Source: Candidatus Omnitrophota bacterium
GTDB taxonomy: Bacteria; Omnitrophota; Gorgyraeia; Velamenicoccales; Velamenicoccaceae
Direction: 5' to 3'
DNA length: 64,000 bases
NCBI GenBank assembly: GCA_016235185.1
Contig: JACRLT010000029.1
Coordinates: 1 to 64,000 of the forward strand
How positions within the stretch are numbered: position 1 is the stretch's first letter; the number at the start of each line of letters is the position of its first letter. The translations under genes were made by a program, and so were the position numbers. Below the pieces are notes generated by a model. The model saw only the letters and a list, made by a program, of their open reading frames with translations. It was not told where the DNA came from and did not search any database. This document shows positions 4,329 to 54,412 of the stretch, in pieces.

Positions 4329-4389
4329 ATGTCGTCGATCCTTGCTGCCTACCTTCAATTATTCATAGGAAAGCAACAAGGATAAATTC

Positions 4390-4414
4390 GCCCGCCATTG
4401 ATACAGTGGCGGGC
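4390..4414. repeat. GCCCGCCA/TGGCGGGC palindrome
   Basis: A perfect 8-bp inverted repeat with a 9-nt spacer, lying within one base of the tautomerase stop codon. It could act as an RNA hairpin at the end of that gene; no T-run follows, so it is not a classical terminator. Closely related hairpins occur at 30557-30581 and 30460-30483, and CCCGCC/GGCGGG ends recur in several other gaps. Confidence 0.7.
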
Positions 4415-4594
4415 TCATTTAAAGAACTTTTCCCCTTGGGCCCAATTCGCTCCGTCTACTTCGTCAATAACCAGATACGTCGCATCCTTTGGCTTGCCTG
4501 CCACGCGCAGAAGGGTATCAGAAAATTCTTTGGCGATCTGCTTCTTCTGCTCTTTGCTCAATTTACCCACGACTTTCAGGTTAACGTAAGGCAT
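4415..4594 (-). CDS. 4-oxalocrotonate tautomerase family protein
   Basis: A 59-residue ORF starting MPYVNLKVVG. After removal of Met the N-terminal Pro would be the catalytic base typical of the 4-OT superfamily. The following KLSKEQKKQIAKEFSD helix and the LVIDEVDGANWAQG C-terminus match the family, whose members are about 60-75 residues and form hexamers. GAGGAG lies 6 nt before the ATG, and this ribosome site is the 3' end of structured element copy A (4600-4701). The substrate is unknown; nothing nearby suggests aromatic degradation. Confidence 0.85.
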   Translation of the reverse strand: MPYVNLKVVGKLSKEQKKQIAKEFSDTLLRVAGKPKDATYLVIDEVDGANWAQGEKFFK

Positions 4595-4599
4595 GGCAT

Positions 4600-4701
4600 C
4601 TCCTCAATTTTGCCTTATTCAGGCTTGTTCCTTAAAAAATTGACTCCGAAGCATACGCCAAAAATATAGTAATAGATCTTTGGCGTGATTATGCAAGGAG
4701 T
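4600..4701 (-). promoter_or_regulatory. Structured intercistronic RNA element, copy A
   Basis: Read on the minus strand it starts ACTCCTTG five bases after the metW stop. It then folds as ACTCC/GGAGT closing GCAT/ATGC, then ACGCCAAA/TTTGGCGT with a long loop. A second hairpin CAATTTT/AAAATTG follows and is directly succeeded by the AGGAG ribosome site of the tautomerase gene. The same layout with different helix sequences is found at 18538-18642 and 54313-54412. The 5' CTCC can pair either with GGAGT or with the ribosome site, so a translational switch is conceivable. The ligand, if any, is unknown. Confidence 0.65.
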
Positions 4702-4705
4702 AAAT

Positions 4706-5317
4706 TTATATATTTGTACCGGCTGGTTGTGTAATGACAAAAACGACATTCAGCGCAAAAAGATTAGGCCAGAATCTTATCAAGCCCTTTTTTCCCAGAT
4801 AATAGGCATCCAGGACCTTGATATTTTTTGTCCGGCAAAAATCCTTAAAGTCGCTCGTGCTCAAGAAATGAAGGTTAGGGGTATTATACCAACGGTAAGG
4901 AAGAGAAACGGTCACTGGCGCTTTTCCTTTTAAAAAAAGCCTGAACCTTGCGCTCCAGTACGCGAAATTAGGAAATCCAACAATGACTTTTTTCCCTACG
5001 CGAAGCGCTTCGCTGATGACGAAATCGACTTTCTTTACTTCCTGCATACTCTGGTTCAGGATAACATAATCAAAACACTTATCGGGATATTCGATAAGGC
5101 CGGAATCGATATCGCTATGAAAAACACTTAAGCCCTTTTCCACACAGCGATAAATAGCTTCTTCACTTAGCTCAATTCCCTGCACCTTGGCATTCTTCTC
5201 TTTTGCCAAAAAATAGATCAGGTCGCCTGAACCACAGCCCAAATCCAAAACCCTTGAGCCGGGTTCAATGATCTTATAGATGATCCTGTAATCAAGCCGC
5301 ACAGTATTAAATGTCAT
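4706..5317 (-). CDS. metW: Methionine biosynthesis protein MetW
   Basis: A 203-residue class I methyltransferase-fold protein. It has the SAM-binding motif [11 protein letters not shown] near residue 22, the acidic loop [10 protein letters not shown], and a conserved MetW segment around LNQSMQEV, plus [14 protein letters not shown]. MetW is almost always encoded next to MetX and is required for its activity in several bacteria; its reaction is not settled. The start overlaps the metX stop by 4 nt (ATGA), so the two are translationally coupled as expected for this pair. Confidence 0.95.
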
Positions 5318-18537: not shown

Positions 18538-18642
18538 CTCCTTGATTTTGCTTATATCCGGGTATTTATTCTTTGCAAAATCAACTCCGCAGCCTATCAC
18601 GAAAATATCGCAAGAGATTTTCGTGATGTCTAGGCAAGGAGT
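18538..18642 (-). promoter_or_regulatory. Structured intercistronic RNA element, copy B
   Basis: Minus strand from ACTCCTTG, 9 nt after the kinase stop: ACTCC/GGAGT closes GCCT/AGGC and a perfect 11-bp hairpin ATCACGAAAAT/ATTTTCGTGAT. The second hairpin TGATTTTGC/GCAAAATCA is perfect, with AATACCCGGATATA in its loop, a sequence largely shared with copy C (AATACCTGTAATATA). It ends at AAGGAG, the ribosome site of the receiver gene. The opening CTCCTTG is an exact complement of CAAGGAG at the ribosome site. Confidence 0.7.
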
Positions 18643-54312: not shown

Positions 54313-54412
54313 CTCCTTGATTTTGTATATTACAGGTATTTTCCCTGCAAAATCAACTCCGAAGTTTGCGCAGAAAATTTGGAACAAATTTTCAAGCGCA
54401 TAAACAAGGAGT
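54313..54412 (-). promoter_or_regulatory. Structured intercistronic RNA element, copy C
   Basis: Minus strand from ACTCCTTG, 6 nt after the QueG-like stop: ACTCC/GGAGT closes GTTT/AAAC, GCGC/GCGC and GAAAATTT/AAATTTTC. The second hairpin TGATTTTG/CAAAATCA follows, with CAGG/CCTG and AATACCTGTAATATA in its loop, and ends in AAGGAG, the ribosome site of the GAF-ANTAR gene. The helices differ in sequence from copies A and B but pair equally well. Confidence 0.7.

Follow-up and report, generated by a model that had tools for sequence, protein, structure and literature searches.

The three segments of about 100 bases that lie in front of three different genes in the window, the 64,000-nucleotide stretch of Omnitrophota DNA analysed here, belong to a large repeat family, which probably consists of non-autonomous palindromic mobile DNA elements comparable to REPs and MITEs. 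In its behaviour the family is like a mobile palindromic DNA element and not like a metabolite-sensing RNA switch. An earlier note on this DNA had described a covarying structure and preferred a two-state translational switch, with a mobile palindrome supplying ribosome sites as the alternative. The structure stands and the alternative is better supported, while the switch has to be given up as a property of the family. What makes the mobile element the better reading are empty sites in a sister genome, near-identical copies with unrelated flanks, tandem arrays and the diversity of the downstream genes. The elements are present in one species and absent from another, have been copied recently, exchange their tips, lie in sense orientation and adjoin Shine-Dalgarno (SD) sequences.

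All three copies (A, B and C) are read on the minus strand and, as had been described, start a short distance behind an upstream stop codon (4, 9 and 6 nt for A, B and C, with ORFs ending at 4706, 18652 and 54419) and end in AGGAG. The unit consists of two parts, HP1 and HP2. To its left stands a leader that varies, and its right side is formed by a purine-rich SD (AAGGAG), a start codon or the 5′ end of a tRNA. HP1 is built in the order P1 (ACTCC/GGAGT in all three copies), an internal loop TT/TNC, a 4-bp helix P2, unpaired bases and a long apex hairpin. HP2 (TNATTTTG/CAAAATNA, with a purine-rich loop) follows directly on the 3′ side without a spacer, and AGGAG comes then. In copy A, HP1 (P2 GCAT/ATGC) covers 4643..4701 and HP2 (CAATTTT...AAAATTG) 4605..4642, and the AGGAG at 4600..4604 is the SD of a tautomerase-like ORF with the likely start ATG at 4594-4592; this label goes back to the earlier reader and the N-terminus MPYVNLKVVG. 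The upstream ORF is MetW-like (methyltransferase). Copy B has its HP1 (P2 GCCT/AGGC) at 18584..18642, its HP2 (TGATTTTG...CAAAATCA) at 18543..18583 and its AGGAG at 18538..18542, between a histidine kinase and the response regulator 18527-18159 to which this SD belongs. Copy C lies between an unassigned ORF and the GAF-ANTAR gene 54305-53610, with HP1 (P2 GTTT/AAAC) at 54356..54412, HP2 (TGATTTTG...CAAAATCA) at 54318..54355 and the SD of this gene at 54313..54317. The helices of A-C had been recognised correctly, as had the exact complementarity of CTCCTTG and CAAGGAG in B and C; the terminus of copy A is TTGAGGAG. All three copies fold better than shuffled sequences (z = -2.8, -4.5 and -4.7 for A, B and C).

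The pattern CTCCTTGN{28,58}CGGAGT occurs three times in the window, with 0.04 expected, and 40 times in the own genome (G000, 1.79 Mb; C-numbers denote its contigs) versus once for a reversed-pattern control. A covariance model (R1) was built from 25 copies, and the search for further copies that had been proposed gave 93 matches in the own genome at E ≤ 2e-4. As this figure includes a few matches to half a copy or to overlapping contigs (C10:10 is identical to C46:10), the number of loci is about 90. The length of the element is about 70-165 bp, typically 95-125. Copies were also found in G003 (at least 59), G004 (at least 53), G005 (at least 40), G007 (at least 11) and Candidatus Velamenicoccus archaeovorus LiM (G006, NZ_CP019384.1; 66), but only seven in Omnitrophota UBA9636 (G001), which belongs to the same genus as the own genome. 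The copy number therefore ranges from 7 to more than 90 within one genus, with dozens of copies in related genera. In a phylum-wide sample a second model (R2) matched 43 of 237 genomes, all of them in a single class of Omnitrophota, in a patchy distribution. The earlier note had recognised no riboswitch class, and indeed no Rfam family reaches its gathering cut-off at the copies. At copy C 'freshwater-2' scores 19.6 bits against a cut-off of 49.9; this match is out of register and driven by AAGGAG...AUG, and other weak Rfam matches were dismissed as chance register. No description of palindromic repeats in Omnitrophota was found in the literature searched, the V. archaeovorus genome paper not included; the family is apparently undescribed until now.

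Nearly all copies are intergenic, mostly between co-directional genes with short gaps. A start codon on the same strand (ORF of at least 45 codons) follows within 22 nt in 77 of the 93 copies, compared to 22 on the opposite side as a control, and in 79 of the 93 a co-directional stop codon stands no more than 60 nt upstream, in most cases at 12 nt or less. In about 70 copies the right end adjoins GGAG or a comparable stretch of purines, in about 17 a start codon and in three copies of the own genome, counted by inspection, the first base of a tRNA. These three are C29:77471, C29:23065 and C38:1580, and a further one is G006:1073992; as the right end meets the first base of the mature tRNA, a hairpin would stand immediately before the RNase P site. 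The left leader is variable, being similar to AAGGAATAAACGTTG in some copies and often containing the stop codon of the upstream gene, and AGGAA is enriched 6-15 nt to the left of HP1, matching the AAGG at the right end. As had been noted for A-C, the downstream genes are unrelated to each other, and copies are found even inside the gene pairs S8-L6 (ribosomal proteins) and kinase-regulator. One copy (C7:8371) apparently meets a convergent gene and another one (G006:262421) is inverted beside a tRNA, which means that a downstream gene is not obligatory. In G006 the strand of the copies does follow the replichore. Replichore bias as the cause of the orientation was nevertheless rejected, because the minority-strand copies G006:1617437, C35:6818 and C49:11678 follow their own genes. 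The gene after the copy C12:45588, reading from about 45580 downwards, encodes an SMC-like protein whose first 37 residues are followed by CLRYDSLVTLSDGSKIEIG, apparently an intein in the P-loop.

Between the own genome and the examined part of G001, 18 gene junctions could be aligned. G001 is empty at 16 of them, including those of copies A, B and C, and has retained the element at two. Unrelated short gaps in a sister genome, which the earlier note had named as evidence against its proposal, are therefore found at 16 of 18 junctions. The gap orthologous to copy A is short and has its own SD without the element, the site of copy B is empty as well, and that of copy C reads TAAGACAGGGAGGATATACTAGTATG. 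At C39:15988 both genomes have AGGAGGTAACTAAGCATG in common and the element stands immediately 5′ of it, while at C49:17242 the insert stands between the common left flank GTTAAAATAATTAAA and AGGGG. Two genes which overlap in G001 are parted in the own genome (C31:19617) by an element with a new stop codon. Direct repeats (AAGG/AGGA) flank some copies; at 75-80% divergence clean target-site duplications were not demonstrable. At the rpsH-rplF (S8-L6) junction a full, independent-looking copy is also present in the distant Omnitrophica GWA2_41_15 (L171), as in the own genome, and several nearer relatives are without it, so this appears as a recurrent insertion site.

Copying within a genome is apparent from pairs such as C38:71428 and C16:112, which differ at one of 96 bases and have unrelated flanks; further close pairs exist. 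In G006 tandem units of the form ...AAAATTAAGGAA-TAAACGTTG-HP1-HP2-AAGGAA... with a constant linker were found. Moreover, apex hairpins are exchanged between copies: one of about 45 nt is 97.8% identical across 20 copies, against no more than 76-79% identity in their HP2 and P1/P2. Other apex tips are CCGCCATTGATTCAGTGGCGG-like, the HP2 tips of G006 can be CCGCCAGAGGCGG, and in three minimal copies the apex hairpin is missing. At the thioredoxin site each genome has its own subfamily signature (TAG/AC in four of the six copies of G001, but not in any of the 96 of G000), which at an orthologous site indicates concerted evolution or re-insertion. On the minus strand of the window (4385-4420), 3′ of the tautomerase-like ORF, a CCGCCACTGTATCAATGGCGG hairpin followed by a T-rich stretch resembles the HP1 beta apex of about 20 copies, and terminator-like hairpins and tips of the element have common sequence.

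The change of helices with pairing kept, claimed from three copies, is borne out across the family. In an alignment of 100 copies fitted to the model (A2), 94.6% of cells are standard pairs, and all 23 tested pairs show two-sided changes, with 347 such cells versus 23 one-sided changes and a mean of 103 after shuffling; slid pairing reached at most 52%. An alignment made without the model (A1) gives the same picture. P1, for example, occurs as ACTCC/GGAGT, ATCCC/GGGAT, ACCCC/GGGGT and GCCCC/GGGGT. When P1, P2, the base of P3 and HP2 are counted without the terminal pair, the helices contain only 0.5% G-U and 2.0% other mismatches, compared to 6.2% G-U in 32 tRNAs of the same genomes. This scarcity is unlike ordinary RNA selection. 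Because selection on RNA only should spare G-U over other mismatches, it points to a constraint or a copying process at the DNA level, involving both strands or templated by the hairpin.

It is unlikely that the family is a cis-regulatory RNA, that is, a riboswitch-like or protein-binding leader of a large regulon, possibly two-state with CTCC occluding the SD. The very strong covariation as such speaks for it, as do the sense orientation and the adjacency to SD or start codon, but the near-lack of G-U pairs does not, and a regulon would be expected to be retained at orthologous genes, whereas the same-genus G001 keeps two of 18 sites. The unrelated downstream genes and the copies before tRNAs, at the convergent junction or inverted beside a tRNA also argue against it, and Rfam gives no match. 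In copies A-C the alternative CTCC/GGAG pairing lies within about 2 kcal/mol of the best fold. However, this anti-SD pairing is not conserved: exact CTCCTTG/CAAGGAG is present in only 17 of 52 SD-type copies, and 13 copies no longer have CTCC in P1 although their SD is still GGAG, so the complement is lost and the two-state switch was rejected as a family property. About 17 copies are without GGAG since the start codon itself ends the stem; SD-like G-rich bases in the HP2 loop are found in 13 of 17 such copies versus 28 of 68 others (p = 0.014). A two-state switch in single copies is possible.

Individual copies also give some support to an RNA function. The thioredoxin copy stands in the 5′ UTR, with a TATAAT box about 40 nt ahead of it, and G001 has preserved its fold. 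At ribH the copy is shared by G000, G001 and G003, whereas G004-G006 have other hairpins there and G007 and G008 have none. The element is therefore transcribed, at least partly, and has to be compatible with translation; a common regulatory signal is not seen. Most copies are probably without a specific regulatory task, and an RNA role may have been taken on by a few old ones, those at ribH and thioredoxin.

That the elements are intercistronic hairpins for mRNA processing or stabilisation, BIME-like, which cut or protect segments of operon mRNAs and have spread secondarily, we consider quite improbable. Most copies do lie in short gaps between co-directional genes, within operons such as S8-L6 and kinase-regulator, and some directly at tRNA 5′ ends, but their presence differs among closely related species and such hairpins normally accept G-U, REP stems often showing it (PMC3733652). 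A boundary of transcription units, with HP2 as promoter (-35 TTGATT/TTAACT, -10 before the right end) and HP1 as terminator, is very improbable: although TTGATT/TTAACT stands at the start of HP2, AT-rich bases precede its end and some copies adjoin the 5′ end of a tRNA, the distance between the supposed boxes is not constant (by inspection it differs by about 6 nt), for which reason a promoter in HP2 was rejected, and there is a separate TATAAT upstream of the thioredoxin copy as well as copies inside the S8-L6 and kinase-regulator pairs.

For a mobile palindromic element the closest comparison are REPs, high-copy extragenic palindromes between co-directional genes, which are specific to species or genus, show compensatory stem changes and can give flanking ORFs a stop codon with their ends (PMC3733652, PMC2817692). 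The Omnitrophota element, with about 90 copies, nearly all of them between genes, and compensated stems, resembles REPs and REPINs, but it is about 100 bp long, bipartite, tied to gene orientation and SD, and has hardly any G-U. The REP tag GTAG/CGTC is not found at the foot of the palindrome, where the left flank is a variable (A)TTG or (C)GTT(G). G000 has nine genes for Y1 transposases, the type that would mobilise an IS200/IS605-derived element as single-stranded DNA, without a functional link to the element. None of those listed for G000 and G006 stands between two copies; of the eight listed in G000, two have a single copy less than 1 kb away, where about one is expected by density. Since, in addition, the number of Y1 transposases does not track copy number across genomes, a RAYT/REP origin was rejected, and as the defining REP tests of tag and RAYT flanks failed, the element is filed under palindromic mobile repeats and not as a REP.

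Dispersed non-autonomous copies and empty sites in relatives are what is found in MITEs. ERIC, BOX, Correia and Rickettsia palindromic elements are short, dispersed, non-autonomous palindromes without an own gene, which occur in either orientation and are not tied to a ribosome site. The present element is likewise short (70-165 bp), palindromic, dispersed and geneless, but is tied to ribosome site and orientation, and terminal repeats or duplications of a known IS were not identified. The TAACTGA repeats of Beggiatoaceae, for which a translational role was proposed, are numerous and stand immediately before the start codons of unrelated genes, those of ribosomal proteins among them (PMC4679880). 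In this position the two are alike; those are heptamer direct repeats, in contrast to covarying stem-loops here. Integron attC sites were rejected, because the RYYYAAC / GTTRRRY core boxes are absent (by inspection) and copies lie in ordinary gene pairs such as S8-L6.

A common sequence, which starts right after the AAGGAG of six different copies, is found at six contig ends in the own genome (C6, C9, C16, C28, C34, C46). Relatives identify this sequence as the left end of an IS110-family element with a DEDD transposase of 341-343 aa (the 343-aa one with Pfam IS110 domains) and a long noncoding left end. This element sits after the SD AAGGAG in several genomes, with loci in relatives at L239 (G028), L240 (G035) and L242 (G139), and ends with CATAGGAG before the next gene. 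In the own genome six of six IS110 copies are at the right end of a palindromic element. The IS110 element is a second mobile element using SD sequences; it is found in the same class and at the same AAGGAG sites, in one orientation and with AGGAG restored at the right end, but the palindromic element is without transposase and, by eye, has no sequence similarity to the IS110 left end. The two elements thus coexist on the same sites.

A transposase linked to the copies, an autonomous parent and a parental IS with matching terminal repeats were not found. The palindromic element may move as a folded single DNA strand, or be copied by hairpin-templated synthesis, and would be mobilised by an enzyme acting in trans. 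Entry would take place at the purine-rich SD, AAGG(A), of the sense strand and would leave the ribosome site intact, and copies would persist where the upstream gene keeps its stop codon and the downstream gene a usable ribosome site. Some points weigh against a mobile element. The orientation to genes is near-absolute, for which a random inserter would need strong selection or targeting; some of the empty sites could be losses in G001; and the structure kept at ribH in G000, G001 and G003 also fits a function. We put forward only tentatively, as a possibility, that these elements form a mobile class which enters specifically at SD sequences in sense, regenerates the ribosome site and often the stop codon, spreads in operons with little damage, and has interchangeable tips and a subset of copies serving as gene-specific leaders.

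If SD sequences are indeed targeted, mobile DNA has here a way into operons that does little harm. The element looks like a case of massive covariation without evident RNA regulation, for which scarce G-U pairs are a simple test. Many gene starts carry such leaders in Omnitrophota, a phylum almost uncultured, and annotation as well as promoter and riboswitch searches will meet these elements and may misread them as regulatory RNAs.
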